DNA of 64,000 bases from Ectocarpus siliculosus (lineage: Eukaryota; Sar; Phaeophyceae; Ectocarpales; Ectocarpaceae), in the NCBI GenBank assembly GCA_000310025.1, contig FN649758.1, forward strand, positions 895,616 to 959,615, written 5' to 3'. Shown piece after piece: positions 7,701 through 44,608 of the stretch (position 1 is the stretch's first letter; each line of letters begins with the position of its first letter). The position numbers and the translations under genes are program-made. Below the pieces are notes generated by a model that searched no databases, had not been told where the DNA came from, and saw only the letters and a list, made by a program, of their open reading frames with translations.

Positions 7701-10355
7701 GTAAGTCCTATTTCCTGGGGACACTGACTTTGGCGAGGGCGCCGCCTTGCCCACGTTGCTGAATTGAAGCATACCTGACATGCCACAACCTCCCTTATCT
7801 TGGTCCTCATCTTGAACGTTCTGGGTGTGGTCCCAGAGAGCTGCCCAATGAAACAAAGTCGCAACAAAACACGCGGGAAGCTACAATAAGGTGCGGAGCC
7901 CGCGCGCAAGCGGGCAACGAACTAGCTGGTAGACAGCCTCGGACAAGGCTCGAGGTCTCATAACGCTGGTCGTTATTGCATTATCCACCCGTGTGCAGTG
8001 AAACGCAAAAAAATAGGACGGGCCCGCGGGTACCCAAATTTCCAAGGTACTCGTTGGGAACTTCCCGACGTTTTTTTCCCACCTTGGTGGGCGGTCCCGG
8101 TACTGGCGGTTATTGCCGTCGTATGCTGGCGTGTACCGGGACCACCGAAAAACGAAAAAACCCGCTTACCGCCGAAAACGTACGGCACAAACTGCCAAGC
8201 GTACCGCCGTATTGCAATACCGCCCAGCACGTACCGCCATATTGCAAAGCCGCCGAAAGAGTACCGTCAAATCGGGTTACCGCACAGAGAGGTACCGCCA
8301 CAAGCGGTATCGTCAGTATCATAAAGGTAGTCCGATAGGTAAGACAATGGACCACTTGTATATCGCAGCCAAGAAGTCTAGACTAAGTGCCTTGGAGCGT
8401 CTCGCCCTCGACATGATTAAGTTGACTGGTGAGTCCAGCGTTTAGAAACATCGAAATACAAAATGTACATACTCCCCACGGGGGTGAATAGGTGACGTTG
8501 CAGAAGCCAGGATGGAAATCGTAGACCACCTCTCACCTGAGATTTGGTTGCTGTCCAAGCCAAGATGCGCGAGCTCGGCAAGGGCTCCCAGCTCCTTAGG
8601 GACAGTACCTGAGTCGAAACAGTATCGACGGATTTGCTGAGATCAGTAGGGTGTTCAAAGAGGCTTTCGCATTTTTCTCACGCTCAAAACGGCGTGGATG
8701 CGAAAACCGATGAGGTCATCGCAGACCAGAACAACGCAAGACAGTAGTTGATGGTCCAGGTACAACCAGGAGAGTCCCACCATATCACTACAAAACGTTG
8801 CCGAGTTCCTACGTTGGTGTCGTTCCGTCGGATCGGCACGTCTCGCTCTTTCTCTCCATCCAATGTTCGCCGCATGCGTGTGCCGTGTAGGATGTAAGTC
8901 GGGCGTCTGATCCGCCACCGACGATACTTTGTCAAGGACGACCAGATTGACACCAACAATCGCTCAAACGATACATCGCCTGATCGCGATCCTTTGTTAT
9001 CCGCAGCAAATGACGGTCTCACATATTTTTGCGAGTACCGCTGCTGATGGTAATGATGCTGCTGGTGTCAGGATCGCGGTACTATGTGCAACACAACCCC
9101 TCTACCTGGAACATTCAGTGCCGTTGCACGCTGAGGTATGGATGACGGCCTAGAATAACCGGACAGCTTCTTTGCGACAAGTGTTGCGAAACGATGTACA
9201 GTTGGGTTGTGACTCCCTTCTCTTTGGTTCTGATGCGCGCACGCCCCGATTGCTCCATACAGACATGGAGGCTTGTACAGTATCAGCCGCTAGGCGACGC
9301 GCTTTCTCCTGAATTTCTTGGAAACTTCGAAAAGAGCATGCTCTGGGCACCCGCAAAGAGTACTTCGATGAATAATTGTGTTCTGTTCTACAGTATGTTG
9401 CCAACCCAATACTCCTACTTCCTCTGGCCAGTACGTCGGTAACGTTAAGGGCGATAAGCGTGTGAGGTGGAACGGTAGTGACGTTGGTATAAAATTTGGG
9501 TCCGTTGCCAAAGAAAAACTGAAAAAGCGCAGACGATGCTCACGGAGACAAACATGACCCATGTCGAACTATTCCCGATTTTTTGCGTTTTCTTGAGATA
9601 TTTTGTTTCTATTGTTGTTGGCCTATTGTTCCTCCGCCGAAACAGGGAAACATGTGCCAATTCTCGAGTCGACTGATGTTTTTCCGGCCGTTGGCCCATG
9701 CAGGGTTGTCCGCGAAAAAAAAAGGGTTCTAACCCAACACACGCTCAAGATTTCGAAAAAATATCACCGAAGGCATCGGACACGGTTAAGTTCTCGTTCA
9801 AGCATACCGCTACAGGCGTACGGGCCAGAGAAGGTATAGGAATTTTTTGCAACCGATTTTCTGTATTGAATGACGCATCGGGTAAACTTGCAAAAAAGTC
9901 AAACAAGCTAGGTAACAATACCCTATAGCAAATCCTAAAACTAGCGCGAAGTAGAAATAGGGCCCCACCCGAATTGTCTCCCGGCGTCTAGCAGATCATC
10001 TTCTCACCAACGCGTGGGCAGTGTACATATTCACATTATTGCGCTGTGCATCTTGTGGGTGGAGGAGCGATTTCCAAGGCCCCCTAAGCTCAAAGCTAGC
10101 TTTGAGAAACTTGTCTTGTTTCGCGCTCGGCTTACGGTCAAGAGGCGTACAATACCATTCTGTTGCACACTTTTCGTCGTACGTTGTGCCGCTGGGTTCT
10201 AGAATCTTTCACCAACGTGTTGTAGGTGGTGCGTGCAGTGTGTGCAGGGATCGCGGGGGGAAACTGAAGTCTAATATTCTCACCTGTGAGATGGTTATTA
10301 CTCAGGCCAAGAAACGTGAGCTCTTGAAGGGCTCCAAGCTCCTTTGGGATGGAAC
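1609..10355 (-). CDS. ROCO gene A: LRR-Roc-COR GTPase, partial at both ends
   Basis: Multi-domain GTPase of the ROCO family, a likely intracellular signalling protein or immune-type receptor. Exons in transcript order: 10284-10355 and 8537-8608 (two LRR cassettes), 7775-7840 (linker), 6856-7078 (linker plus P-loop GQEGAGKS), 6265-6397 (switch region ending YDCAGQ), 4768-5345 (rest of Roc with TKCD), 3364-3570 and 2333-3098 (COR), 1609-1729 (Cys-containing tail exon). All boundaries are AG/GT, intron phases agree at every junction, and no stop or frameshift occurs, unlike gene B. No N-terminal exon like the one of gene B at 33952-34126 is visible upstream, and only two LRRs are present, so the 5' end is missing, truncated or lost near the repeat array and gap at 10.96-12.44 kb. 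The 3' end runs off base 1. Family assignment is firm; function in this alga is inference. Confidence 0.85.
2333..3098 (-). CDS. ROCO gene A, main COR exon
   Basis: 766-nt exon, 255 codons after one split-codon base. It starts EFDGSLVRHETFVFLDVLW, typical of the winged-helix start of a COR domain following Roc, and continues through NHKDQETFDGRVNLGDTG, LPTLASLGLTFPLE and GVPPGAIEKVLTRCCGLG to PQHGDAMLMANK. The donor is AAG|GTAATC. COR (C-terminal of Roc) mediates dimerisation in ROCO proteins. The exon is fully open, whereas its counterpart in gene B lacks 10 bp. Confidence 0.85.
3364..3570 (-). CDS. ROCO gene A, Roc-COR junction exon
   Basis: 207-nt exon, one base plus 68 codons plus two bases. 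It reads DPVEVVLRKS, GITVEDLSKKWQKIVDEL and NAKNALEGALSI. The flanking exons supply the split Arg codons on each side. The gene B exon (20929-21135) has exactly the same length. Confidence 0.8.
4768..5345 (-). CDS. ROCO gene A, Roc GTPase exon with G4 motif
   Basis: 578-nt exon following YDCAGQ. It begins VAYTGLLQMFLTPRSVCVLVC, contains CRKLEELRVCDWLRSISRR and the G4 nucleotide-specificity motif TKCD, and ends HRLVNKPDGGGLRGAQMVLP and SLEQG. The donor is ACG|GTGAGC. The frame is open throughout and serves as reference for the frameshifted copy in gene B. Confidence 0.85.
6265..6397 (-). CDS. ROCO gene A, Roc switch exon (G2/G3)
   Basis: 133-nt exon. It completes a split Ser codon after the P-loop Lys-Ser and reads LRQSMKANEPTPTGEWKEES, TVFADVEPMEL and VYDCAGQ, where D-C-A-G is the G3 DxxG motif. 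It ends phase 0 before GTAACTGG. Confidence 0.85.
6856..7078 (-). CDS. ROCO gene A, linker and P-loop exon
   Basis: 223-nt exon starting in phase 1 after GGCAG. It reads GSMPGQLCRLLDVLE, LDGNPWAEPPESI, YFEDLYAEPCRIER and the Walker A motif VVLVGQEGAGKS, then splits inside a Ser codon at donor GTCCGT. The NPWAEPP stretch is the LRR C-cap leading into Roc. Confidence 0.85.
7775..7840 (-). CDS. ROCO gene A, linker exon (LWDHTQ)
   Basis: 66-nt exon, phase 1 at both ends, reading LWDHTQNVQDEDQDKGGCGMS. The acceptor is preceded by a pyrimidine tract and the donor is GTATGC. The gene B exon at 29351-29416 has identical length and starts LWDHTQDTQD. It sits between the last LRR cassette and the P-loop exon. 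Confidence 0.6.
8020..8330. repeat. Degenerate TACCG/CGGTA palindrome-rich satellite
   Basis: About 300 bp built from diverged copies of short words around GGTACC, TACCGCC and TATTGCAA, on both strands. It lies inside an intron of ROCO gene A. Copies are too diverged for a clean unit length. Confidence 0.55.
8537..8608 (-). CDS. ROCO gene A, LRR cassette exon
   Basis: 72-nt exon, phase 1 at both ends, encoding one 24-residue repeat TVPKELGALAELAHLGLDSN followed by QIS and a split Gly. The acceptor is GACTCAG and the donor GTGAGA. Such symmetrical exons can be added or removed without breaking the frame. Confidence 0.8.
8640..10283. other. Intron of ROCO gene A, no feature recognised
   Basis: Between two LRR cassettes. 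ORFs are short and motif-free. I see no further LRR cassette or transposon signature. Confidence 0.4.
10284..10355 (-). CDS. ROCO gene A, LRR cassette exon (most upstream found)
   Basis: 72-nt exon, phase 1 at both ends, encoding SIPKELGALQELTFLGLSNN then HLT and a split Gly. The acceptor is CCACAG and the donor GTGAGA. No further in-orientation cassette or N-terminal cap exon is visible upstream before gene B ends. Confidence 0.8.
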
Positions 10356-10570
10356 CTGTGGGCAGCACGTCGAACATTGTATCAGTGGAAGTCATCTATG
10401 AACAAGGTACGCACAAGTTAGCGGGGGATAGAACGTAGTACCCCCTGGCTTCCACCTACCCATCCACATCTTGGCGGGATGTTGTAGAACCCGTCGTGGA
10501 ATAGTTCCTAAAGGACGGGAGTGACGACTAGCTTTCCCCGGCTGGAGTCATACTTGCCCATTCTCTACAG

Positions 10571-10814
10571 GTCCCATGCCGCCGGATAGGGGACATCTGC
10601 CTTCATAAAAATGACGAGTTATTTCGCGCACAAACAAGCTGAACGTGTTTCCCCGATCATGTTTCAGAAAAAGCGTTCCCTGGGCATGGGCGAGTAGGTA
10701 TTCTGGAGGCCGCGGGAACACGACCTCAAATTTTCTATGCATACGCCTCATTCAATCCCATCCCGCCGGAGATAGCGTTGGAATTCATCGTTCTCCGCGG
10801 AAGCATGTTCAGCA
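10571..10814 (+). pseudogene. Broken LRR cassette pieces in inverted orientation
   Basis: On the plus strand, opposite to gene A, 10571-10600 follows an acceptor-like CTACAG and reads PMPPDRGHL, matching the first third of an LRR cassette before breaking off. At 10757-10814 a second piece reads PIPPEIALEFIVLRGSMFS, an LRR cassette lacking three codons in its centre, and still ends at a good donor (GTGAGC). These look like relics of cassettes that moved or were copied in reverse. Confidence 0.5.
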
Positions 10815-11006
10815 GTGAGCCATACGTTCGCGTGTAATGTCGTTTACCCCCCCAAAAATTAGTATCAATCCCGCATTCGCGTTGGCGGATTTCCGTAACA
10901 CGCGGAGAGATGGCACCCGCCCTTGACCGACCGGTCCGATTGCTCCACAACCGAGGGGGTATTAGATAAAATTAGACCATCTGATCAGTCTGACTACTGA
11001 GTCAAC

Positions 11007-11406: not shown

Positions 11407-11434
11407 AAAGATATACGCTGAGCTCGTTAGCACC

Positions 11435-18291: not shown

Positions 18292-18946
18292 CTGACAAGT
18301 GGGGTGCAACACGGTCTCCCGTTAAGTGTAGCGTCGAATCTAGGCGAATTGAGGGTATGCGACCCACCTTTTCCACCCGCGCATTGCCGCAAACACTCAC
18401 ATTTCTTGGCAAATTGATTTGAGTTCCAACTGCAAGAGCGGACGCCTGGCATACACTTAGCAGAAGCGACAACGCACAAGTTTCACCACGCCCGCGCCCA
18501 CGGCACGCACACGTCCACAGCAATGACAAACACCTCCAAGCCGGAAGACTCGTTTCCCTGTAGACGCGTGCCTCTGCTAATATATCACCGGCTTCCTTAA
18601 ATATTAATAAGGCAAATTCACGACCTACAGAGACAACCGACGAGGTGCACATAGACTGACAGGCTTGTAAACACGTCTTACGGTCAGCAGGTGCGACCAC
18701 TTCAGTTTGCTTTAGTTCCGGTGTTCGAAAGCCGTACAACTCCAGGCTTTACATGCGAAGAGCAACACCTCCAAAAAATTGTATACTCGCTTTCAAGAGC
18801 ACCATGTTGAAGCGTACATCGTTGTCGATTGCACGACAAAGGTTTGTCAACGGCTAACTACGAGACAATAGTGCTTGTGCCCAGAACTGGGCGCTTCAGG
18901 CGATCAGCAATTGGCCTCTAACCTACACAATTGGTTGAGGGCTTAC

Positions 18947-19702
18947 CTTGTTCACAAAGAGCATCGCGTCACCATGCTGAGGGCACTTCAGAGAGCCTTT
19001 CCAGCTTAGCCCTGGAAAATCCAACAACATCAAGCTCACGGAAGACATGACGAACGACAGGGCCACCCAGGGCACTGGGGTGCTGATATCTGAGCAGTAA
19101 GCTCATTGTCGGTGGGAGAGTATTCCAACACCAAAGCAAATGTCCTGTGCTCATCTTGGACACCCAGGCCGCCATGCACAAGCACCCCATATCGCCAGAA
19201 TGTTCGCACGCCACCAAGACCGCAGCAGCGTGTCAACACCTTTTCGATCGCACCAGGTGGTACACCTAGGAAAATCTTCCAGCTGACGCTGAATGCTGGG
19301 GTATGCCCCGAGCAGAAGGTATCGATCGTGTTACCGACAATCTCGGGGCGGTCTGGCTCTAACCTCAGCAGAACTACCAGGCCCCCATCAGGGTCATTTT
19401 CGAGCGGGAACGTTAGACCCAAGGATGCAAGGGTGGGGAGCACATACTCGCACAGACCATTCGGCCACATGGCATACGCCAACCTGGGTTCAAGCACGCC
19501 CTCGTTCTTGAGCCTGTCCCACGAAGCGATGTCTGATGCATCGTCGAGTGTGATACGTGTGTCGCCCGTGTCCCCAAGATTCACACGGCCGTCGAAGGTC
19601 TCTTGGTCCTTATGGTTGAGCAGGGGCTTGAGGATTCTCGCCAGCCAGACGACGTCCAGAAAGACAAACTTCTCGTGGCGAACGAGAGACCCGTCGAACT
19701 CC
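18947..19702 (-). pseudogene. ROCO gene B, main COR exon with 10-bp deletion
   Basis: 756 nt against 766 in gene A. Protein identity to gene A is high from EFDGSLVRHEKFVFLDVVW to TDNELTAQ. Then 10 bp matching ATCTTCGGTG of gene A are missing (around 19085-19095) and the frame is lost. The original frame resumes as TPVPWVALSFVMSSVSLML. Splice sites are preserved (CATGCAG acceptor, AAG|GTAAGC donor). Confidence 0.8.
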
Positions 19703-20928
19703 CTGCATGCACATGCAAAAATGGAGTTTTTTTTTTCAAATCCGTGCAGGATGAGTTCATAATCCGTGTGGAGCTTTGCCGGAAGCGGTGTAGGTATGTC
19801 CTTTCCGAAACCGGCGAACGCGCTCGATTTCGTTTGTGATTGTTTGATGGACATACCACCACGCGAGAACAGGAAACGAGGTTTTCCTTGGCGGAGTGGG
19901 GGTGGGTTTAGGCGGGTGTATGAGCGCCTCTCTTCGGAAACGCGAGTCCGAGAGATTGAACAACAGGTATGGTTCCAGTAGCCCTAGACAACTGCACAAT
20001 ACACCGTGCGCACCTTTGGTGATATCGTGTCTAAGTCAGCAACCAGTGATTGTCGCCGATTGTTCCTTTTCATAAGCTACACATCACTCGGGTCCTTCGT
20101 GATGAACAGTCACCAGTGCCGGCGTCAAAAAAGATAGCACCTGTCAATCTGACCATTGACAAGAGCAACAACGAGTCCCGAGCCTGAGGTTTGTATGCGT
20201 CTGCTTCTGAACGTCATACTCTCGCCAAAGGTTCTATCCCCTCTGTGGAGGCGTCCCAATCGTTCACCTGCCCTGCGTGTGTCCGCTGCTCCTGCCTCAA
20301 CCCATTGCAGTTTAGGCATGAGAGAAAGGGGTACCAACGGCACAATGACGCCTCATCGGTTTTCGCCCCGTTACCTGCCTCCCTCGTACCCATCGCCAGG
20401 AATGCTCAAAACCCAACAGCAGTTGATGTGTCCACACGGAATAACCTTCGTCATCTTCGGCCAGCCGGAGAGTTCTTTGCATGGTACATGTTTGCAAATT
20501 TCTCTGTTTCATGTGGTAGGAATCTCCTTCAATACATTGTAGCGATTCCTGGCTCAATCGCTCATGTCCAAGCCGCGGCTTGGTGTACGCGCACGGTATG
20601 ATCGACACTATTCCTCACCGTTAAATGGCAACTTAAGTCAACTGTCGACAGTGAAGATTGGGGATAGGGACAGGCCTTGAGGTGTCAGACGGCGCGGGGC
20701 ATAGAAAAACAGGAGCACTTCACGGAGGAGTTTCGAACTGTCGGCAGAAGAAAAGTAAGCCTTCGATTCACCCAGCTGGCGTACGAAAATATCCCATCCC
20801 TAACCCAATCCACACGTCGCCCTTCCAGGACAAATTTTGGGTCACACATCCGGGGCTTTCTCAGCAACCTGTCGATCATTTCTCCACAAACTGTAAAGCG
20901 CGCCTCCTGGAGCAATTAGATTCTATAC

Positions 20929-21135
20929 CTGATCGATAGAGCTCCCTTCAAAGCATTCTTGGCGTTCGTGACGGTGATCCCTTTCTGCTTAAGCTCGCCA
21001 ACTGTTTCGTCCCATTTCGTGCTGAGATCCTCAACCGTGATTCCCTGGAACACGGATGTCTTGCCTCCTGCCGTTTCCGCCGCGTTTCCTCTGTCAGGGC
21101 CGGGCGACTTGCGCAATACGGCTTGCACGGGATCT
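20929..21135 (-). CDS. ROCO gene B, Roc-COR junction exon
   Basis: 207 nt, the same length and phase as in gene A. It reads DPVQAVLRKS, GITVEDLSTKWDETVGELKQ and NAKNALKGALSI. Confidence 0.8.
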
Positions 21136-23090
21136 CTGGGTAAGCAACGGAAAAAGCAAAACAGGGCCGAACGTCATTCGTGACGACTGTGAAAGTCGGC
21201 GCTTGGCGTGTACCAAGAACTCCATCCACACCCCTGAATGGTACGGTCTACTAGAGTAGTCGACGCAAGCACTAGCAAGGCACGAGAGGTCGACCGAGGG
21301 CACCTCATGAACAAAATGAGGAGACGGAGGCCCCACAAAAAAAGTTGCGGATTCGACGGGGCGTGGGCGGGGCGCGTATGGCTGGCTGGAGATTCAGGGG
21401 GGTTTGGGTCGCCCCGCTCGGTAGTCGGAAGGGTACGGCAGTGCTTGACTGAGCTTCAGAGATGGAGCCATCGGCTCTACTGCCGTGATAGGAGTTTGAT
21501 CCCCAGGCAACCTTTTTGCTCTCCCTTGAATGGTTTCGCTGATATTTGAGAAATTCTCGAATACTACGAGAAAAATTGTCTGGGTCTCCTGGGTTTCATG
21601 TTTGCTTTTAGATTTGGGTTAGAACGAGCGTCGGTCCGCGCGTGTTTCACACAGATATTGCAGGGCTGCTGAATGCACGGTCGTGAGCCGTAGTAGTGAC
21701 TGAAATTTCCCCAACACCCCCGCAGGCTCCACGTTGTATTCGACAACGTCTACGTCTCGTGAAGACATTCGAAAGAATAGACTGCTGTTACACTCCTTCC
21801 TAGAGGGCCTAGATATTGCTCCGTAACATACGTGGTTCAATAGCGGCATATCTGGGTGCGCTCGTGCTGTTCCTGTAGGAGCTATTTCCCAAGTAACGGC
21901 GTTATGGTAAAAATGGGCTTCTACTGGTATGGGATTAATGAGCCGCGGGTGACGACTCAATACCTTCCAGCGGTCTATCTGGGATACTGTGCAAGCTGCG
22001 AGACATGCTGCTTCCAGGCAGCAAGCAACCCAGAACGCGCAATTCAATTACTTCCGGAATCATGTTCCAACGGATCTTCCACGACCTTGTACCCGCTCCC
22101 GCTGGACGCTTGTTGAACATATTACACATCAATGGCCGAGGAACACGAACAATGCATGCTCTCTCTGCCACAAGAGCAGTACGGCCAAACGATCGGCACC
22201 TAACAGTACGGACACAGACGCAAATGAACAGTGGTAGCTTACACGAAAGTACTTGTAGTGCTGCTGCTGCTGCTGCTATAATGGCAATGACTCCCATCTA
22301 TCTTTCTTTCTTATTCTTCCTTCTACCCTGGCGCCTCGCACCAAAAAGGCTCTCTTCTTGTGCATTGTTTTTACCTTCGGCACAGCAGTTTTGTTTCCAG
22401 GTGACCCCTCCCCACACACCGCACAGCAAAAACAAAGGCATCTGCCACGAGCTGTGTACATGCTCCGTCTTGTGTCGTCATTAACACCAACCAGGAGGCT
22501 ACATGAATAGTACGCTCAGAAATTCCAGGCACGAGAGTCTGGCGTAGCCTGCAAAAGAACCCGCTGCGTCTGCTCCCCACACACCGATTTAACGCAATGA
22601 CGATGACACCCGCCACGAGCTGTGTGTATCGCTCCCTTCTCTCGGCAGTGCTGTCTTGCCCCTCTTAGCGGTGTTTTGTGTTTAGCTAAGCGCTTCCTCT
22701 GTTTCTCCTGGTTTGAACCGAGCAACTACTGTTGCGTGTGTGTGTTCCTTTCCTCTCGTCCGACTCTCGGGGGCGAGGGCAAGAATTTTCGATGATTTTG
22801 GGTACACATCCGTTTCAAGCACGGCCATCTGTTGTCGGAGCGCGACGAAACCGGTGTGACAAAGATTTTGCCATAATTAGCCTCTTCCTTACATTTTTTT
22901 TTTTCCCAGCCGATCGTAAATTGGTGCTCTACAGACCTCATTCTCGTCCAGAGAAGTCGCCAATTTATTGACGTGCCGTTCCCCCGGGGGGGTTGCGGAA
23001 GAGTCGCTCTACAGCGCAATGATTGAAAGAGCCCGATATTTAGAGCCTTTCTCCCCCCCCTGAGGATGAAGGATAACTGTCAAATTCTTC
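21136..23090. other. Intron of ROCO gene B with dispersed repeats
   Basis: Mostly unrecognised. A (TGC)n run lies at about 22259-22277. The stretch 22385-22660 contains two copies of a word pair (AAAGGCATCTGCCACGAGCT) that is the reverse complement of the 220-bp tandem repeat at 41.3-42.0 kb. No exon found. Confidence 0.5.
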
Positions 23091-23098: not shown

Positions 23099-24410
23099 AC
23101 AGGGGGTCCCACAAGGTTGCACTCTTGTCCCCAGCATTATTCTAGGTGTTTATTAACGACCTGTTGGCGTAGAAGCAGTCGAGAAGGGAGTAGAGGTATG
23201 GGAAGGGAGTAGAGGTATGGGAAAGCACGGTGTCGGGAATGCTGTTTGCGGATGACTTTGTTGGGTTGTCTGACACCCCTGAGGGACTGCAAATGCAAAT
23301 TGATGCGGCGAAGGCGTTTGCTGATAAGTGGAGATTGTCTGCCAACGTTAAGAAGAGTGCCGTCATGATATGCAACGAGGACAGGGAGGAACAGCAGAAC
23401 ATAGATAGAAGTGGAGGGTCGAGGAGCTTGCAGTAGTGGACCAGTTCACATACCTCGGAGTAGAGATCGCAAAAGACTGCTCGTGGAATGCACACATGTC
23501 CAAGGTAGCGGAAAAGGGCAAAGCACGAGCAGGGAAGCTCACCAAGTACTCGCAAACCGGCACCTCGATACACGCATCAAATGGACGGTTTTGAATAGCG
23601 AAATCGTACCGCCGCGAGAGTACGCCGGGGAAGTATGGGAAAGAAATAAGAAGGTAGTCAAAGAGCTCGAAGCGGCGCAGATGAAAGCAGCGAAAGTCAT
23701 CCTAGGATGCTCCAAGCGCACCAGCACTACAGCCGTCAGGGCAGAACTGTGGATCCAATCCCCACGATCGGGAAGAGACGCAAGGAAGATGACATTGCAG
23801 TATCACATGTGCGGGATGGGAGAGGAGAGGTATCCAAGGATAAGGAGGGAAAAGAAGTGCACGGAATGTTGAAAGAAAAAATAGTACCTTCATGGATCAA
23901 TGGATGCTGGGACAAAGCTGAAGGTCAAGTTCAGGACCGGGACATTGGCCTTGGAGAACGTAGTCGAAGACTTCGGAAGGTGGACGATGAAGACGCAAAG
24001 TTCAAATGTGATTGCGGCTTCGAGTGCGAAGACCGTGTTCATGTAGTCGCGGAATGTCGGCTGTACCAGAAGCAGAAGGAAGTGCACATGACTGAGCTGG
24101 GAAAAGTAGGAGAAAAGTACAGGGAGATGTGTGAGGAATAGGATAGCCAGCAGAAGACGTTAGCTGTACTGGGGCATAGGAAGTGGGTTGAAAGGGCGGG
24201 AAGCGATATCGGTAGAAATTATATCGGTAGGGTAGGGTCGATAGACTAGGGAAGACATTTTGGAGTCACCTTTGGCAAATTAGGAAGAGACGATTGGCCA
24301 TCGGTGATCGGTCCTGTGGGAACAATGCCCCGTCCTCTCGAGGACGCGTGGTCAATGGTCTAACCGCTAAGGCATGCAAAACTTTAGAGTATGTCCCCCG
24401 CCCTCCCCCC
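23099..24410 (+). mobile_element. LINE-type non-LTR retrotransposon relic (RT fragment and 3' tail)
   Basis: Plus-strand relic inside a gene B intron, antisense to the gene. It begins with EQGVPQGCTL, the RT motif before the catalytic block, broken by a stop. The catalytic block FADDFVGLSDTPEGLQMQID and the thumb-side WRLSANVKKSAVMI follow. After a frame change come VDQFTYLGVEI and a C-terminal region with a Cys/His cluster (CDCGFECEDRVHVVAEC). The tail around 24285-24400 recurs twice near 59.5-60.5 kb. It is 5'-truncated and frame-broken, so inactive. Confidence 0.75.
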
Positions 24411-24684: not shown

Positions 24685-25264
24685 CTTCCATGCTCGAGAG
24701 CTTCTAGAACAGTGAGGGCCATGTCCCAGCTTTGAGGCAGCACCATCTGAGCTCCTCGGAGGCCACCTCCGTCAGACTTGTTGACCAGCCGATGAAGTAA
24801 ACTGGGCGAGGGTTATCGTCAGCCGCGTCTCGCCAGTCGCACGCCCAACCCGCCTTCGAGGCGTGGTCCCCAGTGCTACTCTCACCATGCTCACCAACTC
24901 CTCCTGCCACGAAGCAGCTCGTGAGGGAAACACCGGTCTCCAACTGAACGGGTTGCATACCATGGCGGACCCAGCTCGAAAGCCACGCCCGACAGGCATG
25001 CTCCATGCGTACTCCGATTTCCCTAGCGTTTCCGCCCGCCAGGTCGCACTTGGTGGCGACGAGGACAACGTCGTTGTCGGGAACGCGGCGAGATATCGAC
25101 CGCAGCCACTCGCAAACGCGTAATTCTTCAAGCTTACGGCAGTCTTCCTCAACCTGATCATTGTTTTCGCTATGTAGCTGCTGCCCGAGTGCCCCCGCGT
25201 CGCATACGAGCACGCAAACTGACCGCGGCGTCAGGAACATCTGCAGCAGCCCCGTGTAAGCAAC
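24685..25264 (-). pseudogene. ROCO gene B, Roc GTPase exon with 1-bp loss
   Basis: It begins VAYTGLLQMFLTPRSVCVLV and contains VATKCDLAGGN (G4 TKCD). After DWRDAADDNPRP the frame slips: gene A has one more base in the C-rich run (near 24806-24812 here). The correct frame resumes to LEALEHG at donor GTGAGA. Length 580 nt against 578 in gene A. Confidence 0.8.
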
Positions 25265-26004
25265 CTGTCCAGCGTGCGCGATGCGAGCTTAACATCAAAC
25301 ATCATCGACAACGTGGCCTCTCATTGTTGGAAGTGCGTCGCCTCCAACTGTTAACGAATCCCCATGGAACCATTCGAGCCCCTCCAAGATCCGAGCTATA
25401 TCCGAAACGAGAAGCAGAAACGTGCTCTAGATACCCCCCGCCACCCTCCACACGTTAGGGGCGTAACGAATGCCCCTAATCGAATAGGCGCATAGAGCAA
25501 ATCCAACCGGGGTCTTGTCATTGGCTTGGGGGATGCGCTTCGAAAGCGGCATGGTTGGATGGCAGTTGTTCGGGGGCGGCCAAAGTAATCCCCCAAAAAG
25601 GAATCGGCGCAACAACCGTTTCCCCTGGTTGATGCCAAAAAGTCAAGTTGGCGTACGCGCCAAGATGAGCACAAACGTTCGCTCAGCCTCGCAGAGTCTG
25701 TGCCATACCACACCTGGGCAACACAGTACAACATACAGGCCGGTGGTGAAGCAACTCAAGTAGTCCACCGTAAATAATATATACTGAAGTACCATGTTCA
25801 TTACGGCGGGAGACAATACTCATTCAGGAGGACACCTTGGAAGCGAATTGAGTTGACGATTTAGATGGCATGGTAAGACTTGCTCCACCTAGTCCATAAG
25901 TTGCACGTTAGGGGGAGAGCGAGTGCTCCCCGGGTAACGGTCTCACGTAAGGCCTCCATCGAGCACCTTACAAAAAATAGTCTAGCATGCAAAACATCTG
26001 ATAC

Positions 26005-26137
26005 CTGTCCAGCGCAGTCGTAAACCCGTACAGATGAGCCTTCTAGCTCCATGGGCTCCACGTCTGCAAACACCGTGCTCTCCTCCTTCCACTCGCCCGT
26101 GGGGGTTGCTTCATTGGCCTTCATGCTACGGCGCAAG
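26005..26137 (-). CDS. ROCO gene B, Roc switch exon
   Basis: 133 nt as in gene A. It reads LRRSMKANEATPTGEWKEES to VYDCAGQ (G3). Acceptor GTGGCAG, donor GTATCA. Confidence 0.85.
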
Positions 26138-26750
26138 CTGCCACACGTATATGTAGACGAATTTCACGACATATGAGCAGCACGCTTTATGAACAACATG
26201 TCGCACAAGGGTCTGGTGGGAGAAAATGGTGAAATCACCCGTGGTTGGTTTTCAGGAGCCTTAAGTCGAAAGCATGCTATTGCGTAGCTGGGGCAAACAG
26301 CTATAGTTTGCCCATGTCAGCAACCATCTGATCCTAAGGCCGCTTCTTACGCATGGCGTTTTCTGGATTTTGGATTTGGGGGGGGGGGGTCCTTTTCTTA
26401 GCCCAAACAATTATTTGGGCTGTTTACGCGGGGGAAAATGGCCAATTATCACAGCACCAATATTTCCAAGGATTTCCGGCGGCCTGTTAGAAATTGGGGG
26501 GGGGTCACCCCTGGTCACACCCCGATCATGCCAGAACGAGGAACTACACCGCCTTCTGGCCAAATAGAGGCCAGTATCATGAAGTCATGCACAAAACCCC
26601 TGCAGGTACCCAAAATTCAGGGCGTTCTGCGTCGTGTTCGCCGCACACGAGCGGAAAAGGTCAACCCTGCCACATTGCTCTGCTGACGTTCTTGCCTTTC
26701 CGCCTAAAAGAGCCGTTTTTGCGCCTGCTGTATGTGTGACCAGTTGAAAA

Positions 26751-27300: not shown

Positions 27301-27959
27301 TGTCTTGTTGGTCGCACACGAGCCAAAACCATGAACTGAACCATGTTGTGACCCCAAAACACTTGAATCGGCCTTCTTTCCCCCCAAAAAAAACAAATTC
27401 CTCGAGGAACCGTAAGAAGGTCGCTTGGGATCTGGATAATTTTTCCCGTGCAGCCCCCCCCTCCCCCCCCCCAGAGCGAGCAAAACAAATCCCCGAAAAA
27501 ATCAGAGCTTGAGCATCAGCCTAACGCTTTGTTCGATGCCATCATTTCTGCAACAAAAATCGGAAGATACTGCAAGTTGCGAGAGATCGCACCCCATATA
27601 TATCGACTTGTATTGTCCCTCGACTATTCCACAACCGGCAGCACCCTGGAGATATCGTCGAGAGCTATCCTTAGACCAACCGACATGTTCCGTTCTTGGA
27701 GCAATCGAGCATTGAGAGTTGGTCTAAGAAGGTGGCCACCACTCGAACAGTTACGGTAATCCACAAATAGAATGGAAACCATGGAGGAGGGCTCCAAACG
27801 TGAAAGGGGGAGGACATTTGGCCAACCGTCGTGATAAAACATGTGTTTCTCTGGCAACATCATAGTTAATGCTACACTCAAATGTTGACGTGTCGAACGG
27901 TTGGGGGCAACCACGTTTGGTGGGAGTGTGGCAAACAGCAAGACAATCACACCACTGAC

Positions 27960-28197
27960 CTCGTTTTCCCTGCGCCCTCTTGCCCAACAAGAACAACCTT
28001 GACGCTGCTGCGCTTGATCCGACAGGGCTCGGTATACAGGTCTTCGAAATAGCTTCTGATACTCCGCGGGCCTTCGGCCACGATCGACTCTGGCGGCTCA
28101 ACCCATGGGTTACCATTGAGAAAAAGCGTGAACCCCTCCTCTCCAGCACCACGGAGGACGCCAAGCAACCGACGCAAGCGAGATGGCAATGGCGAAC
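27960..28197 (-). CDS. ROCO gene B, linker and P-loop exon
   Basis: 238 nt, phase 1 to phase 2. It reads SPLPSRLRRLLGVLRG, LFLNGNPWVEPPESI, YFEDLYTEPCRIKRS and Walker A VVLVGQEGAGKT. Five codons longer than gene A in the segment before NGNPW. Confidence 0.85.
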
Positions 28198-28339
28198 CTA
28201 CCGAGTAACATATGTCGCGTGGGTATTTTAAGGGAGAAACACCTCCCTCGAGTCGTCAATGATCACGAGACCAAAGGATGTACGTCCCAGCGGTAAGCTA
28301 TAGCGTGGGGATGTTCGCAGTTTCTACGTACCTTAAGGA

Positions 28340-29350: not shown

Positions 29351-29416
29351 CTAACATGCTGTAGCCTCTGTCATTGTGACCAGCATCTTGAGTGTCTTGG
29401 GTGTGGTCCCAGAGAG
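29351..29416 (-). CDS. ROCO gene B, linker exon (LWDHTQ)
   Basis: 66 nt, phase 1 at both ends. It reads LWDHTQDTQDAGHN then DRGYSML. The pyrimidine-rich acceptor and the donor GTACGC are both conserved in position with gene A. Confidence 0.6.
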   Translation of the reverse strand, partial: LSGTTPKTLKMLVTMTEATAC

Positions 29417-30623: not shown

Positions 30624-30799
30624 GATCTCTGGAGATCTTGGTACGCTCAACGACGGGTGAGAAGGTCGCGTCATTTCTAGAAACAACCGATTTGTTTTAG
30701 GTATGCTCTGGCTTGTACATCTGCAAGGACCAAACCAACAGCACCTACGCATATATAGCGGCTCGGAACGCCTCGACCTCAGGTGGAACAAGTTGGATG
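30624..30799 (+). pseudogene. Inverted LRR cassette relic, interrupted
   Basis: On the plus strand, opposite to gene B, 30624-30654 reads ISGDLGTLND after an in-frame TAG, and 30762-30799 reads SERLDLRWNKLDG followed by a GC-type donor-like GCAAGT. Joined, these give the length and spacing of one LRR cassette. They are split by about 107 bp that starts GGGTGAG and ends near ATATATAG, so either an insertion or a gained intron. Confidence 0.45.
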
Positions 30800-30946
30800 G
30801 CAAGTCCAGGACGCAAACAGCGAAAATGACTCAATGAACGTCTGCGAACAAACAGCATGGGTGATAAGTCGAAAGCAAAAAAAACTTGTTGCGGTTCATC
30901 TTGACATATATGCGAACCCACAACAGGTATTCGCCATAACTCTCAC

Positions 30947-31018
30947 CGTTTAACCGGTTTCCTCCTAGGTCGAGGTAATGCAGGGCTCTAAGGTTCCCCA
31001 GCTCCGTGGGGATGGAAC
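30947..31018 (-). CDS. ROCO gene B, LRR cassette 6
   Basis: 72 nt, phase 1/1, reading SIPTELGNLRALHYLDLGGN then RLN and a split Gly. Acceptor CTACAG, donor GTGAGA. Confidence 0.85.
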
Positions 31019-31112
31019 CTGTAGGGGATAAGAACAGTCCAAAATCAGCGCATGCGGGATCGATACTGTTTGTTCGTGAGGCAAACAGCATAACGTGAAC
31101 GTATTGACTCAC

Positions 31113-31184
31113 CGCAGAGCTTGTTTCCGCCGAGTGCGAGGGTGTCCAACGCTGTTAGGCTTCCGAGCTTCGCCGGGATAGTAC
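31113..31184 (-). CDS. ROCO gene B, LRR cassette 5
   Basis: 72 nt, phase 1/1, reading TIPAKLGSLTALDTLALGGN then KLC. Acceptor CTGCAG, donor GTGAGT. Confidence 0.85.
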
Positions 31185-31316
31185 CTGCAGTGAACAAACG
31201 AGTACGGATCGAACGGGGGGTAGAAAATAGTAAGATGGATTCCCTGCGGTTTCTAGTACGCCAAATCACCCACGCATTGGCAGGACTCATTCCACAAGTT
31301 ACACCAGGAGGCTCAC

Positions 31317-31388
31317 CGCTTAGCTGGTTACGCCCCAAGTATAGGTATTGCAGCGCAGCGAGGCTCCCCAGCTCCGGCGGGATGCCGC
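31317..31388 (-). CDS. ROCO gene B, LRR cassette 4
   Basis: 72 nt, phase 1/1, reading GIPPELGSLAALQYLYLGRN then QLS. Acceptor TTGCAG, donor GTGAGC. Confidence 0.85.
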
Positions 31389-31513
31389 CTGCAAGCAGAA
31401 GAGCAACAAATGTTCAAAGGGAAATACCATAACTTCCCCGCCGTCTAGAAGATATTTTGTTCTTGTTCTAGAACCTCTATTTATATCCTAGGCCACCGTG
31501 CTGCCTCGTCGCA

Positions 31514-31576
31514 GTGTCAATACCAATGGAGCTGGAAGCCGCTCTAAGGAGCTCTGCCTAAAACCGGCATTCAGCT
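31514..31576 (+). pseudogene. Inverted LRR cassette relic
   Basis: The plus strand reads SIPMELEAAL, and in a shifted frame KELCL. It resembles the start and middle of an LRR cassette with an internal indel and no usable donor. It lies between live cassettes 3 and 4 of gene B but in opposite orientation. Confidence 0.35.
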
Positions 31577-31728
31577 ATGTGAGAGAGAAAAAGACTACAC
31601 TTGCGCTTTATGCCCGCAGAGACGGCTGGTTCTAGAACATGTGCCCCGCATTAGGGTGGGCGGGGTAGATGCATGCGGCAGTACTCCTTGCATCTTCGCT
31701 GCCCGTCATGATCGCCAAAATGACTCAC

Positions 31729-31800
31729 CGCTGAGCTTATTTCTCTCAAGCACGAGTACCTCAAGTTCAGTGAGGCTTCCGAGCTCTGGCGAGATGGGAC
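31729..31800 (-). CDS. ROCO gene B, LRR cassette 3
   Basis: 72 nt, phase 1/1, reading PISPELGSLTELEVLVLERN then KLS. Acceptor ACTCAG, donor GTGAGT. Confidence 0.85.
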
Positions 31801-32517
31801 CTGAGTAATTTCAGCGAGAAACGCAAAGTCATTTTCCCTGGCTTCGGACAACTCTTTCGATGATGCCTTGTCGAACACCTATCGGAAGAATCGGAGAGTT
31901 GGCACAACTACAATAGGGGATCGTTCCTCAAGCATTTCGTGCTCGATCTAGCTTCGTACCCCTTCGCTAACTCTGCGATCTCCGCGACATATGCAATTAA
32001 ACAAGGTCGTTGCAATTGCGAAGCACGCCGGTGCCAACTCTCCAATACGTGGGACGGTGAACAAATGTACAACACCCGCGATGCTGAGCCTCCGCGCGTA
32101 TTTCGTACATCAAGCGATGTAAAGCTTTCGGCCGGGCCGGGGGGCGGGGGTGTGGGGAGATGAGGCTGTATAACCGATCACTGGGCTGTCGACCACGAAC
32201 GAACGGGAAGCAGTGCGCTTGGTTCGCGGTAAGGGCATGGCGTGGTGGAATGCGAGCTTTTTTATGGCAGTGAACGCTCGGGCAGCCTGCTTCAAGCGCC
32301 TTTCAGCGTTATCCGTCGACAAGTATGAGTTTCAATAGTGGCGAGTACAGCATACTGCGGCACCCGGGTTCTTTCAAAAATGTGATGGCATTGCCACAGT
32401 TTGTCGAGTTCAATCAATAAACATTTGAGCCTGAATTGCGACAACACATCAGCAAAACATTTGATCCTCGACAGAGCCTTTCAAAGCATCACTCGCCGGT
32501 TGATTTCCTGGACTCAC

Positions 32518-32589
32518 CATCTAACTTGTTATCGCCGAGATGGAGGTGCTCCAAGGCGCTTAGATTTCCTATCTGCGGGGGGATGTGCC
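32518..32589 (-). CDS. ROCO gene B, LRR cassette 2
   Basis: 72 nt, phase 1/1, reading HIPPQIGNLSALEHLHLGDN then KLD. Acceptor CTACAG, donor GTGAGT. Confidence 0.85.
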
Positions 32590-33275
32590 CTGTAGATATC
32601 CAAGTCAAGGCAAGACGCATTGTTGGAGTTCCGAAAACAAGGCGTCTTGCTCTTGTTCAATAAAGACGCGCTTTTCCCCGTCAGTAGTACGTATTGCTCT
32701 TTCGCTGCAGGCCCTATCCCACCGGGGACAAGAATATCAATGGCACTTGCCCACCACACGAACGGGCTCAACGGCCAACTCGCGATCAATATGTTTCCCT
32801 CCTAGTTGCCGATCACAAGCAGCGAAACAGGCAGGAACAGCAGCAACAGCACCAGCATCACCAGCACCAGCACCAGCAGCCACCGGCTTGGCAACGAATA
32901 TACCGTAGCACGTGCTGCCATTCTCAGTGGATTTGCCTCCCTCTCTCTCCGGCGTTTGTGCCATGGGGTCCCCAGGTCCGCGCTGCTCAGGGGCTCACTT
33001 CACTGGCCACAGCCTCATCTCGACGCGACTGTAACCCAGCTCAACCCTCACTCACGCGATGTTCGATATTGTGCCGCGCACCCAACTTGATATCTAGGTC
33101 TAGATTCTTTAAAAAGACGGTTGTGGATCTTCCCGGCTAACGCTTGGTCTGGACGCGAATAGTTGGGGTGAAAATCCGGTTGAGACCGAGCCTCAACTAC
33201 AGGTGACAGACTTATAGAACCCAGTGGAGTAAATTTCTATAATTAGGGTACACGATGACGGTGCAAGCTTCTTAC

Positions 33276-33347
33276 CGGTAAGCTGGTTCTTGTTCAGCCA
33301 GGCCTCTTTCAGCTCGGTGAGAACTCCCAGCTCCTCAGGTATAGGCC
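33276..33347 (-). CDS. ROCO gene B, LRR cassette 1
   Basis: 72 nt, phase 1/1, reading PIPEELGVLTELKEAWLNKN then QLT. Acceptor TTGCAG, donor GTAAGA. Confidence 0.85.
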
Positions 33348-33448
33348 CTGCAAGAAAACGCAGCACACGAAACAAAAAACAGGGGGGTAGCATGTCGTTG
33401 CTACAGAAGTCGAAATGACAAATTTTGTTGTCCAACGACCAAGAACAA

Positions 33449-33520
33449 CCCCCAACTTGTTCCGACCAAGGTGGTGGCGCTGCAATGCGCTAGGGCTTCC
33501 TAGCAGCCGTGGGATGTGTT
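33449..33520 (-). pseudogene. Dead LRR cassette with both splice sites lost
   Basis: Exactly 72 nt in the orientation of gene B, reading HIPRLLGSPSALQRHHLGRN then KLG. The acceptor AG is replaced by AA and the donor GTGAG by TTGTT, so it should stay in the intron between exons 1 and 2. Confidence 0.6.
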
Positions 33521-33715
33521 TCGTGGCAAAGCAAGCCAAAACAATGTGCACTATTGATTCGGAAGAAGATTGAAGTCCTGTCGTATGCGCTGTGGACACC
33601 AACTCACATAGGAACGTACATCATCTTAAAGCGCGGCAATTGAACGGGTTGCTGTTGTAGAATGGTTTTAGGAAATCAATTTTGGATCCTGATTTTCTCA
33701 ACGCACTCCAAATAA

Positions 33716-33787
33716 GCGATACGCCGGAGGACCTGGGGAATATCCGAGCTCTGAAAGAGCCGTGTCTACGCGATAGCAACCTGGAAG
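33716..33787 (+). pseudogene. Inverted LRR cassette, full length, splice sites lost
   Basis: 72 nt on the plus strand, reading DTPEDLGNIRALKEPCLRDS then NLE and a split Gly. It aligns end to end with live cassettes. The donor is GAATAG and the acceptor register is lost. It lies in the first intron of gene B, opposite to the gene. Confidence 0.6.
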
Positions 33788-33951
33788 GAATAGACATCGA
33801 ATACACGTTTTACGTTGGAGCACGCCTCGTGCAAAAACACATGGCAGCACTCCAAAACACACACTCTGCTGGGAACACGAAGTCTCAGGAATGGTCAAGC
33901 AATGTAATCTCTTGACGGATGCACATGTCAGGAGCAAATGCCGAATAACAC

Positions 33952-34126
33952 CTTGGAGGTTGTTCTTGTTGAGGAAAAGCCGCACCACGCGGCCCTGGTC
34001 GTTGACTTCGACTCCGAACCATGTTGCCAGCCCAGCACCTGTGTCCCAGTCGTCGCTCTTAAACCATCCAGCCCCGCCGGTCGAACGATAGAGGGCAACT
34101 AGTGCGTCGCGATCCGTCGAAGCCAT
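33952..34126 (-). CDS. ROCO gene B, first exon (N-terminal cap)
   Basis: 175 nt: 58 codons plus one base. It starts MASTDRDALVALYRSTGG and continues DDWDTGAGLATWFGVEVND and LFLNKNNLQ, the N-terminal cap that precedes LRRs in this family. The ATG is chosen because it directly precedes the conserved DRDALVALY block. Donor G|GTGTTA, phase 1, matching the cassettes. Confidence 0.85.
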
Positions 34127-42401: not shown

Positions 42402-42815
42402 ATGATAGCGGAGAGAAGCGGCGGAATAGGAGGAGATTCGCAAAGGGAGGAGACTACAGTTGTGCGCATCAAGATGGAGGAGAGGTCGCGCAACGCAGCA
42501 GAGAAGCTACGAGCTGCTGAGTCGGAGGTGGAGAGGCTGGTGAAGGCGCTTAGAGCTGCGGAGGCTGCCGAGTATGAGAAGGAAAGACTTAGGCGGCAGC
42601 AACAACAACAACAGCAGCAGCGATGGAGTGCTCAATGGAAGCAGCGGCCATCGCAGGTACAGCAGTTTTCTCGTGGTGGTTTTGTCCGTCAGCAGAACCA
42701 ACACTGTGTTTTCACTCAGAGTCACCAGGCGCGGCAGCACCAGCAATTGGCGCGGCAGCAACAGCAGCCGCCGCCAACCGGATTGGTGGGATATATGACT
42801 GCGGGAGCAACGCCG
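42402..42815 (+). CDS. Gag-like protein, N-terminal part (coiled coil)
   Basis: From ATG at 42402 (or 42474). A charged helical stretch (MEERSRNAAEKLRAAESEVE and onward to YEKERLRRQ) suggests a coiled coil. It is followed by a Gln run and a Gln/His-rich segment ending QQQPPPTGLVGYMTAGATP. The zinc-knuckle part lies in the next frame. One missing G near 42813-42816 (CCGTG for CCGGTG) would join TAGATP to VYFQQESPPPPGTVYHC. Confidence 0.55.
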
Positions 42816-44311
42816 TGTATTTCCAGCAGGAATCACCCCCTCCGCCTGGTACAGTATACCATTGCACTCGGTGCGGCAGGAACGGCCTCCACGGCGAAGA
42901 ATGCGCCGCACCCCGCAGGTTCGAGGGTACGTGCTGCGCCTGTGGTCAGTGCGACCATATTTGGCGGAACTGCGCCGTGCATCTTCATGGGAGCAGCGGC
43001 GAGGATGACGGCCGTATCGTCCGCGGTGGCTGCTGGATGGGCGTCAATGGCGGCGGCAGCTGCATGGACATCGGTGGAAGCTCGGTCGTACAGCAGCAGG
43101 TGGTGGTAGAGAGCGAATACCGCTCCGATTGTGTCGACCTGGTTCACGTTGGCGGCGAGGTGGTGACAGAGAGCGAGTACCGCTCTGATTTTGTCGACCT
43201 GGTTCACGTTGGCGGCGAGGTGGTGGCAGAGAGCGAGTATCGCTCTGATTTTGTCGACATGGTTCACGCTGGCGGCGCTGTGGACGGTGATGATGACGGA
43301 TGGTTTGGATGGAATGATTCTGTGGACATGGTTCACGCTGGTGGCAGCGTCTGCGGTGATGTTTTCCCCGCTGCTGGGGCGGGGGAAATGGCCGGAGCGC
43401 CTGCGTTGGCGGCTGGAGTGGGGGCATCGGCAGCAGCTCCAGCGGCGACGGCGGCGACCTACGGCGGCGGTAGTGTTGTCGCCGCGACGGCGGCGGGGGG
43501 AATTGCCGGGGTCCCTGCAGTGGCGGCAGGAGCGGCGGCATCGGCAGCAGCTCCAGAGGCGACGGCGGCGACCTACGGCGGCGGTAGTGTTTCCCTCGCA
43601 GCGACGGCGGCGGGGGGAATTGCTGGGGTCTCTGCAGTGGCGGCAGGAGCGGCGGCATCGGCAGCAGCTCCAGAGGCGACGGTGGCGACTTACGGCGGCG
43701 GTAGTGTTTCCTTCGCAGCGACGGCGGAGGAAGCGCCCGGAGGGCTCGCGGCGACAGCTGGAGTAGCGGCATCGGCGGCGGTTCCAGCGGCGACGGCGGC
43801 GGTGCCCGGCGACACTGTTATCTTCCCGACGGTGGCGGGGAGAACGACCGGAGCGCCCGCGTTGGTGGTTGGAGCGTCGGTATCGACGGCGGTTCCAACG
43901 GCGACGGCGGCGGCACCCGACGGTGTTGTTTCTCTCGCTGCGGCGGCGGGGAGAATGGCTCGAGAGCCCGCGCAGGTGGCTACAGTGGCGGCATCGGCGG
44001 CTGGAGTGGCGACATCGGTGACGGCACCACCCGCGACCGCGGCGACGGCACCGGCCGCTACGATGGCGACCGTCGGTAACGTTTCCCCCACCATATCGGT
44101 TGGGGGGGCGGCCAGCAACGGAGAAGCGGTGGTCAACGGCATCGACGACGGCAGCGATGATGGCGGTTGGTGCGCAGGTGAGGTTGATGGCTGCTGGGAT
44201 GACAGCGTCTGTGGCGAGAGGGGGGCGTCCACGCACCCTTTCGATCCCGGCACCGTGTGTTCGGGGGTGCGCGGCGCCAACTATCCCGGGGTGGACAACC
44301 TGGTCGATGGT

Positions 44312-44345
<34 letters not shown>

Positions 44346-44608
44346 GCAGCGGCAGCAGTAGCAACGACGAGGCAGAGGGGATGGATGTGACCTGGTTTGG
44401 GGCACTGCTGCGCCCGTTCGACCCGGGGGAACTGTGCCGGCTGAAGGCTGGGAGAGTGGGGCCGGTGATGGGGGTGGACACCCCGTTCGACCGTGGAAAG
44501 ATGTCGCGGGGGCAACGGCCGGGGAGCCCGTGTTCGCGACATGAGCAACGACAGGAGGATCATGAAGCGGGGAAGGGAGTTCGGAGGACCGGACGAGTGC
44601 AACAATGA
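42816..44608 (+). CDS. Gag-like protein, zinc knuckle and repeat-rich C-terminal part
   Basis: This frame carries a near-knuckle CTRCGRNGLHGEEC and a canonical CX2CX4HX4C knuckle (CCACGQCDHIWRNC), as in nucleocapsid domains. Three tandem ~20-residue repeats follow (ESEYRSDFVDLVHVGGEVV), then five or so Ala/Gly-rich repeats of about 38 residues (PEATAATYGGGSV), a Ser run from an AGC repeat (44314-44359), and a tail MDVTWFGALLRPFDPGELC. It ends TGA at 44608. The frame is open upstream to 42623, but 42623-42815 there is probably the shadow of the N-terminal frame. Confidence 0.65.

Follow-up and report, generated by a model that had tools for sequence, protein, structure and literature searches.

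Site-bounded LRR exon units in the ROCO genes of Ectocarpus siliculosus: evidence for joining at a palindromic core in either orientation

The gene pair and its LRR exons

A window of 64,000 nucleotides from the brown alga Ectocarpus siliculosus (assembly GCA_000310025.1, contig FN649758.1, positions 895,616 to 959,615 of the forward strand) holds two paralogous genes of the leucine-rich repeat (LRR)-ROCO family, here called A and B. Both lie on the minus strand. This study concerns their short LRR exons, termed cassettes, and the larger units in which such cassettes lie at related loci of the same genome. The pair is a further case of the published LRR-ROCO layout with exon shuffling. The main text of Teng et al. 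2024 (PMC11378527) describes brown algal ROCO genes whose LRR exons are 72 bp long and share a single phase, together with exon shuffling and alternative splicing. It also reports positive selection at LRR residues 14, 16, 18 and 19. Here too, N-terminal LRRs on single-phase 72-nt exons are followed by Roc, in a large family. The members of this family are likely immune receptors.

All eight intact LRR exons of the window, six in gene B and two in gene A, measure 72 nt. Each is bounded by AG and GT, and consists of 23 whole codons with two bases before and one after. Introns of phase 1 flank all of them. These equal lengths and phases had been described in an original prediction made on the same DNA, and they hold. 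It had also stated that the N-cap exon ends, and the linker exon starts, in the phase of the cassettes. Both are indeed phase 1 in gene B, where the linker exon starts at 29416 (AG/CT CTC TGG). As had been claimed, any number or order of cassettes keeps the frame, because phase 1 is symmetric. Gene A and seven further fetched stretches share the linker start AG/NN CTC TGG. The splice sites of the window were read from sequence alone. In a profile search of the window, the eight exons score 45-58 bits and the best of 50 Markov shuffles of the 64 kb scores 13.4, with a profile trained on this LRR-ROCO family, window exons included.

The assignment of the pair to the LRR-ROCO repertoire is borne out by the domain matches. 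Against Pfam Roc (PF08477), the Roc exons of gene B score 52 bits when joined, and the genome presents 50 Roc-exon and 70 N-cap matches at the cut-offs used. Five LRR exons of gene B, also joined, score 63.8 bits to LRR_1. The three C-terminal pieces of gene B that were given show no Pfam match to COR, a domain present in 18 of 111 brown algal ROCO genes as counted by Teng et al. (PMC11378527). Genes A and B share five DNA matches of 191-798 bp, with 78-84% identity, in the Roc and C-terminal exons. Their linker regions are 67% identical over 234 bp. The LRR parts present no DNA match at the cut-off used, and only single-cassette protein matches. Gene A shows no N-cap match at E<=0.1. With two cassettes only, gene A may be 5'-truncated or a pseudogene (region 10355-14900). 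Within gene B, between conserved exons, the frames at 23405-24141 (plus strand) look by eye like a fragment of a reverse transcriptase of the long interspersed nuclear element (LINE) type.

Table 1. Exons, relics and weak junction sites of genes A and B, in window positions
Feature	Position	Strand	Basis or score
Gene B N-cap exon	33952..34126	-	profile match 33950-34126 and sequence
Gene B LRR cassette 1, 72 nt, phase 1/1	33276..33347	-	profile search
Gene B LRR cassette 2, 72 nt, phase 1/1	32518..32589	-	profile search
Gene B LRR cassette 3, 72 nt, phase 1/1	31729..31800	-	profile search
Gene B LRR cassette 4, 72 nt, phase 1/1	31317..31388	-	profile search
Gene B LRR cassette 5, 72 nt, phase 1/1	31113..31184	-	profile search
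Gene B LRR cassette 6, 72 nt, phase 1/1	30947..31018	-	profile search
Gene B linker exon 3' of the cassettes, end approximate	29381..29416	-	start AG/CT CTC TGG
Gene B exon region with Roc P-loop VVLVGQEGAGKT, ends approximate	27950..28213	-	
Gene B second Roc exon (..VEPMELEGSSVRVYDCAGQ), ends approximate	25996..26139	-	
Gene B third Roc exon region	24707..25288	-	alone 20.5 bits to Roc, cut-off 27
Gene B conserved C-terminal exons (20926-21146, 18926-19713)	18926..21146	-	
Gene B intron 1, decayed sense cassette	33452..33518	-	18.3 bits
Gene B intron 1, decayed antisense cassette	33724..33785	+	13.3 bits
Gene B intron, probable antisense relic	31510..31561	+	9.4 bits
Past gene B cassette 6, probable antisense relic	30767..30804	+	9.5 bits
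Gene A LRR cassette, 72 nt, phase 1/1	10284..10355	-	profile search
Gene A LRR cassette, 72 nt, phase 1/1	8537..8608	-	profile search
Gene A, decayed antisense cassette	8383..8434	+	14.9 bits
Gene A, probable antisense relic	10566..10598	+	9.9 bits
Gene A, probable antisense relic	10757..10819	+	9.5 bits
Gene A, weak junction relic beside cassette (10467)	10456..10481	.	score 14.7
Gene A, weak junction relic (10878)	10867..10892	.	score 14.4

Cassettes on both strands, units and junction sites

We followed the family in 24 stretches of the same genome, picked from N-cap and Roc matches; these loci are chosen, not random. Stretches L001-L008 are excluded from all counts, and the profile was built without the matches in L001, L006 and L007. 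L033-L035 were taken because of junction matches on their contigs and are not a random sample either. The sequence examined contains 20 of the 70 N-cap matches, and the data come from one assembly of one strain. Nearness to an N-cap or Roc match (within 25 kb) was judged by eye.

The cassettes lie on both strands of their genes. At E<1e-3 with the nucleotide profile, the 24 stretches and the window hold 138 intact and 13 broken sense cassettes, together with 51 intact and 28 broken antisense ones. Three further loci add 18 intact and three broken in sense, and 10 intact and five broken in antisense. Six stretches are the most active (L009, L016, L021, L024, L025 and L026), with 53 intact and six broken sense cassettes and 36 intact and seven broken antisense cassettes. 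At the same cut-off, no intact antisense cassette is found in L015, L019, L020, L023, L029, L032 or the window; L015 has three broken ones and L023 has one. Overall, antisense cassettes are broken more often than sense cassettes (33/94 vs 16/172, p 7e-7). In the six most active stretches the proportions are 7/43 and 6/59 (p 0.38). Our reading is that sense cassettes are kept by selection and antisense ones decay, with the active arrays too young or too often flipped to show it. The original prediction missed the antisense cassettes and the junction sites described below because the clear ones sit in the paralogues. As a separate observation, L029 and L032 present no antisense cassette at the cut-off and carry their LRR exons in direct repeats of about 1-1.2 kb, another mode of growth.

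The cassette is the central part of a larger unit. With a median length of 235 bp, this unit runs from a half-site through an intron, the 72-nt exon with its own splice sites, and a second intron to another half-site. Neighbouring units join in a palindromic junction, in which two half-sites of 12-15 nt surround a core of 2-3 bp. Alignment of the array regions gave 178 high-identity blocks. Direct and inverted blocks number 67 and 68 between stretches, and 23 and 20 within them. Among those listed, 73 of 80 span one cassette on each side. The palindromic site at the block ends falls in mid-intron.

Scanned with a half-site matrix, seven active stretches (39.3 kb) contain 105 junction sites that score above 14, and block shuffles of these stretches give 0, 0 and 0. 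This matrix was trained on the same arrays in which the sites were counted, and the genome-wide patterns given below are the more independent check. The core has 2 bp in 80 of the 105 sites (GC in 68, TA in eight) and 3 bp in 19. Mixed GA/TC cores occur at two unit ends. In 11 stretches, 151 gaps between cassettes are no longer than 450 bp, and 110 of them contain exactly one site. Read from core to exon, the half-site consensus of 81 intact units is about GTNGGCGGGNAC at the 5' end and about RTNSGCGGGATTCAT at the 3' end. Positions 2, 5, 6, 7 and 9 are one base in 75-98% of cases at both ends of these units.

Genome-wide, a strict junction pattern yields 23 sites vs 0 for the reversed control, and 22 of the 23 lie within 25 kb of an N-cap or Roc match. 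A looser pattern yields 90 vs 16 for the control; among 50 places listed, 44 are at N-cap or Roc loci. The pattern with a TA core gives 13 vs 2 for the control, 10 of the 13 at such loci. In addition, an element of about 52 bp with no exon lies between two sites. Eight occurrences in L016, L025 and L033, chosen from the lists of sites, were inspected, and each orientation accounts for four. Because this exon-free element sits between two sites and occurs both ways round, the mobile unit seems to be defined by its ends and not by its exon.

Exchange of units and diversity of the exon cargo

The limits of homology between related units coincide with the junctions. We compared 52 homologous pairs of units (>85% identical) at both ends. 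For the 40 nt on the unit side of each end, 98 of 104 comparisons exceed 75% likeness. For the 40 nt on the far side of the junction, 3 of 104 do, and random flanks average 0.43. Three more loci raise the set to 106 units, 100 of them intact, with 104 pairs that are >80% alike. Relative to their own gene, the two members have the same orientation in 52 of these pairs and opposite orientation in 52. The orientations of neighbours fit independence as well (50 in the >> arrangement, 25 in << and 76 mixed; expected 51, 26 and 73; p 0.67). Pairs at least 85% alike provide 198 homologous ends, at which half-site positions 1-3 each show 93-98% agreement. This places the switch in the core of 2-3 bp. 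The two cores are identical at 138 of these 198 ends, where chance would give 46%, and their commonest differences are GC/GGC (20), GC/TAC (8) and GC/TA (6). Since homology stops at the core, orientation is random and strict junctions are nearly confined to LRR-ROCO loci, we consider the breakpoints site-specific. A simple tandem-duplication history for the active arrays was considered and dropped, given the orientation of the units and their breakpoints.

Cassettes of the family have been exchanged between genes and between contigs. In two pairs the units are identical throughout: one is an inverted pair within the gene of L016, and the other is split across contigs C4 and C26. The paralogues at C4:2.04 Mb and C4:1.89 Mb (L016 and L017/L018) are 98.7% identical in the Roc part over 2,052 bp, as compared between L016 and L018. 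L016 and L017 are 86-100% identical per 50-bp segment from the N-cap to the first junction. Past this junction identity is 40-74% over about 330 bp, and lower still in the last bases of the compared kilobase; L017 is cut by a run of N from position 2024 on, and its first units alone were compared with L016. When two units served as DNA queries, they returned 45 and 46 matches. Many of these are to the exon only, and 41 and 45 are within 25 kb of an N-cap or Roc match. For matches covering at least 200 nt, queries included, the figure is 37 of 38, with C26:5699432 as the exception. These searches score the best candidates only, and their counts are lower bounds.

A stretch of 10 kb beside an NB-ARC gene served as contrast. 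It has 36 self-repeats, all direct and none inverted, so on this one stretch the both-strand arrangement is not a general feature of repeat arrays in the genome. NB-ARC genes as a second family sharing the junction sites were considered and rejected: none of 27 NB-ARC matches lies within 25 kb of a listed site.

The cargo exons vary at particular codons. The comparison uses 43 intact unit pairs >88% alike from the active relatives, not from gene B; pairs share members, and the counts are not independent. Differences per site are 0.043-0.049 in the introns, 0.174 in seven variable codons taken together and 0.027 in the rest of the exon. Codons 14, 16, 18 and 19 differ in 20-25 of the 43 pairs and codon 13 in 12, every time with a nonsynonymous change. 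Variation at codons 15 and 22 is mostly without amino acid change. Thus, diversity at the residues of the concave face is present in the active relatives, and the four residues of published diversity (14, 16, 18 and 19) are the most variable here too.

Genes A and B present a different state. At 9 bits or more, the window holds the eight intact cassettes, one decayed sense cassette, six decayed antisense cassettes and a partial N-cap match, all within the two genes. Shuffles reach this level 0.06 times per 64 kb. None of the antisense cassettes of the window is intact, all six being relics, and the four at 9.4-9.9 bits are probable ones. The half-site matrix finds no junction site in the array of gene B. 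In gene A, two weak junction relics lie beside a cassette and around antisense relics. Window junction matches above score 14 number 4, vs 1, 0, 0 and 0 in shuffles; above 11 they are 6 vs 2, 0, 5 and 4, and below 14 they are no better than chance.

The original prediction had also proposed that the locus is built for cassette exchange, and an alignment of all cassettes as one way to check it. Exchange stands for the genes of the family, while gene B gives no sign of it at present. The comparison of 217 intact cassettes finds a relative of at least 80% identity for 147 of them (48 in the same gene, 59 in opposite orientation), and for the window cassettes the nearest relative is 69-79% identical. 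The most fitting reading of gene B is that it once took part in the exchange system and has since settled, because its array has no junctions, its antisense cassettes are decayed and its cassettes are at most 79% alike to any other intact cassette examined.

Proposed mechanism, alternatives and known systems

We propose that the LRR exon is the cargo of a site-bounded unit that is rejoined at its core either way round, and that genes A and B are retired members. We give this reading a probability of about 0.78. A sequence-specific enzyme, either a recombinase or a tamed transposase with a 2-bp overlap, would recognise the half-site and cut at the core. The cut ends would be joined regardless of direction, within a gene or between contigs. 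Sense units would be spliced into the receptor, and antisense units would be silent until flipped. Every flip or exchange would alter the set of repeats with the frame preserved, and the variable residues of the concave face could then offer new binding surfaces. In genes A and B, the junctions would have eroded and the silent antisense cassettes decayed, with selection retaining only the sense set. The inverted half-sites around a 2-bp palindromic core are arranged as in serine-recombinase-like systems. Exchange of the serine-recombinase type, by which units could be flipped, lost or gained alike, would suit such a core. The cores that differ between copies of a unit are a better fit to a transposase with 2-bp target duplication, or to loose end-joining.

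Several observations weigh against this proposal. Inverted units that are nearly identical make an array difficult to assemble, but many unit pairs have diverged, 40 of 104 being at 80-90% identity, and this speaks against a pure assembly error. The agreement of the cores, incomplete as given above, is not what strict site-specific recombination predicts. No recognised site is present in 37 of the 151 gaps between cassettes, and four gaps have two. Away from known loci lie 6 of the 50 listed places of the looser pattern, 3 of the 13 TA-form sites and 5 of the 91 unit matches. Antisense cassettes show no clear excess of decay in the active stretches, which fits recent flipping and also fits absent selection. 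Finally, a six-frame genome search with two Pfam families, made without introns so that a spliced gene could escape it, found no convincing recombinase candidate: PF00239 has one match and PF00589 one weak match.

Two sources of the enzyme were considered and rejected. The PF00239 match (C16:5122087, in L036 at about 1117-2878, minus strand) is a partial frame beside frames that look by eye like TnpB/Fanzor; the element holding it is presumably of the IS607 type. The large insertions in the arrays of L013, L021 and L034 contain no transposase recognised by eye, no profile search having been made. The L013 insertion has, also by eye, a LINE-like reverse-transcriptase frame similar to the one at 23405-24141 of the window.

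The most serious alternative, tentative in our view, is that the unit is a small exon-carrying transposon. The half-sites would be its terminal inverted repeats and the core a 2-bp target duplication, with insertion beside old units. The inverted ends, the random orientation, a core that is mostly 2 bp (GC or TA) and varies between copies of one unit, and the exon-free element with the same kind of ends all agree with it. However, a free element should scatter, and both the long unit matches and the strict junctions lie near N-cap or Roc matches with one exception each. Judged by copies outside the arrays, as expected of a DNA transposon or a miniature inverted-repeat transposable element, 1 of 38 matches of at least 200 nt is away from them, in searches that give lower bounds. 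Moreover, the units abut with the core alone between them, which would need insertion into existing junctions only. This alternative overlaps with our proposal, which leaves the class of the enzyme open. Ordinary ectopic recombination or gene conversion between similar exons or introns, with the frame kept by selection, was already disfavoured for the active arrays, and we find it improbable. It is the published view, in the main text, for the similar 90-bp LRR exon arrays of Tetrahymena (PMC6564038), and it may hold for the all-sense genes of L029 and L032 with their long direct-copy repeats. Nevertheless, it does not account for breaks at one palindromic core, for single units in random orientation, or for flanks that drop to chance likeness beyond the core in nearly every pair; the NB-ARC stretch, for its part, has self-repeats and no inverted ones.

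A fragile hairpin, with breaks at the tip of the palindrome rejoined at random and no dedicated enzyme, has an equally slim chance. Many junctions are perfect or near-perfect palindromes and cores can differ by a base, as it would predict, but the half-sites of unrelated units have a common sequence consensus that goes beyond mutual complementarity. That the antisense cassettes belong to a gene of the opposite strand sharing the array was already disfavoured and is scarcely credible: their splice sites are intact, yet the N-cap matches (E<=0.1) near L009, L011, L016, L021, L024 and L026 are on a single strand. For gene B in particular, one could suppose a stable multi-exon LRR-Roc gene, made by old tandem duplication and never flipped. 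An array with no junctions, and no close copies among the cassettes examined, would agree. The antisense relics in its introns, far above the shuffle rate at 9 bits, and the weak relic junctions beside a gene A cassette make this unlikely.

Some known systems resemble the arrangement proposed here, in which site-bounded units are joined either way. In bacterial shufflons and other multi-inversion systems, coding segments are flipped between inverted crossover sites and different parts are expressed. The likeness lies in several coding segments that can be flipped between inverted sites. Unlike shufflons, the brown algal arrays have eukaryotic introns and splicing and many loci that exchange units, and the six-frame Pfam search gave no convincing recombinase. 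V(D)J recombination makes diverse receptors out of many gene segments, which it joins at short signals, and it possibly originated from a transposon. Here, too, receptor diversity would come from many segments joined at short signals, and a transposon origin is possible. In contrast with V(D)J, there is no directional rule, all four orientation pairs occurring, and splicing takes the place of coding joints; V(D)J rearranges somatically, whereas these units are known from one genome assembly alone. In the joined-end intermediate of IS30, two inverted transposon ends abut with a 2-bp spacer. The inverted ends around 2 bp are the same, but the units described here carry an exon as cargo, and whole arrays of them persist in the joined state. 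In Tetrahymena, tens of thousands of 90-bp LRR exons of equal length, and mostly of equal phase, are exchanged among genes, according to the main text of that study (PMC6564038). Equal length, phase and exchange are thus shared with Ectocarpus. The explanation given there is ectopic recombination, possibly with a retrotransposon, and the main text lacks the words 'inverted' and 'breakpoint'.

With regard to brown algae, a proposal of 2012 held that controlled recombination shuffles the receptor exons. The main text of Teng et al. weighed against it, with no rearranged locus, somatic rearrangement or site-specific recombinase reported as of 2024 (PMC11378527). According to a 2014 review (PMC4104024), Zambounis et al. 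2012 saw the 72-nt exons in noncoding regions as well. The words 'antisense', 'opposite strand' and 'orientation' are absent from the main text of Teng et al. (PMC11378527). A literature search over titles and the first part of abstracts returned none on junction sites or antisense cassettes, with the text of Zambounis et al. 2012 outside its scope. As far as the accessible parts of these sources extend, the junction sites, the random orientation and the breakpoints at the core are additions to what is in print. The junction sites would supply the missing DNA signal for the 2012 proposal. They predict the positions of the breaks, could be used to capture the enzyme, and would let long reads test directly for somatic activity. 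We see an even chance that this is a dedicated sequence-specific system of exon recombination in a brown alga, outside animals, whose invertible units rewrite the repertoire, possibly somatically. If confirmed, it would mean that a lineage whose multicellularity arose independently of that of animals and plants diversifies its receptors combinatorially, through site-specific rearrangement of DNA.

Two other features of the window lie at 42402-44608 and 53203-54189. The former is GC-rich and skewed, with long low-complexity open frames on both strands. The latter is an open frame of 328 amino acids on the minus strand.

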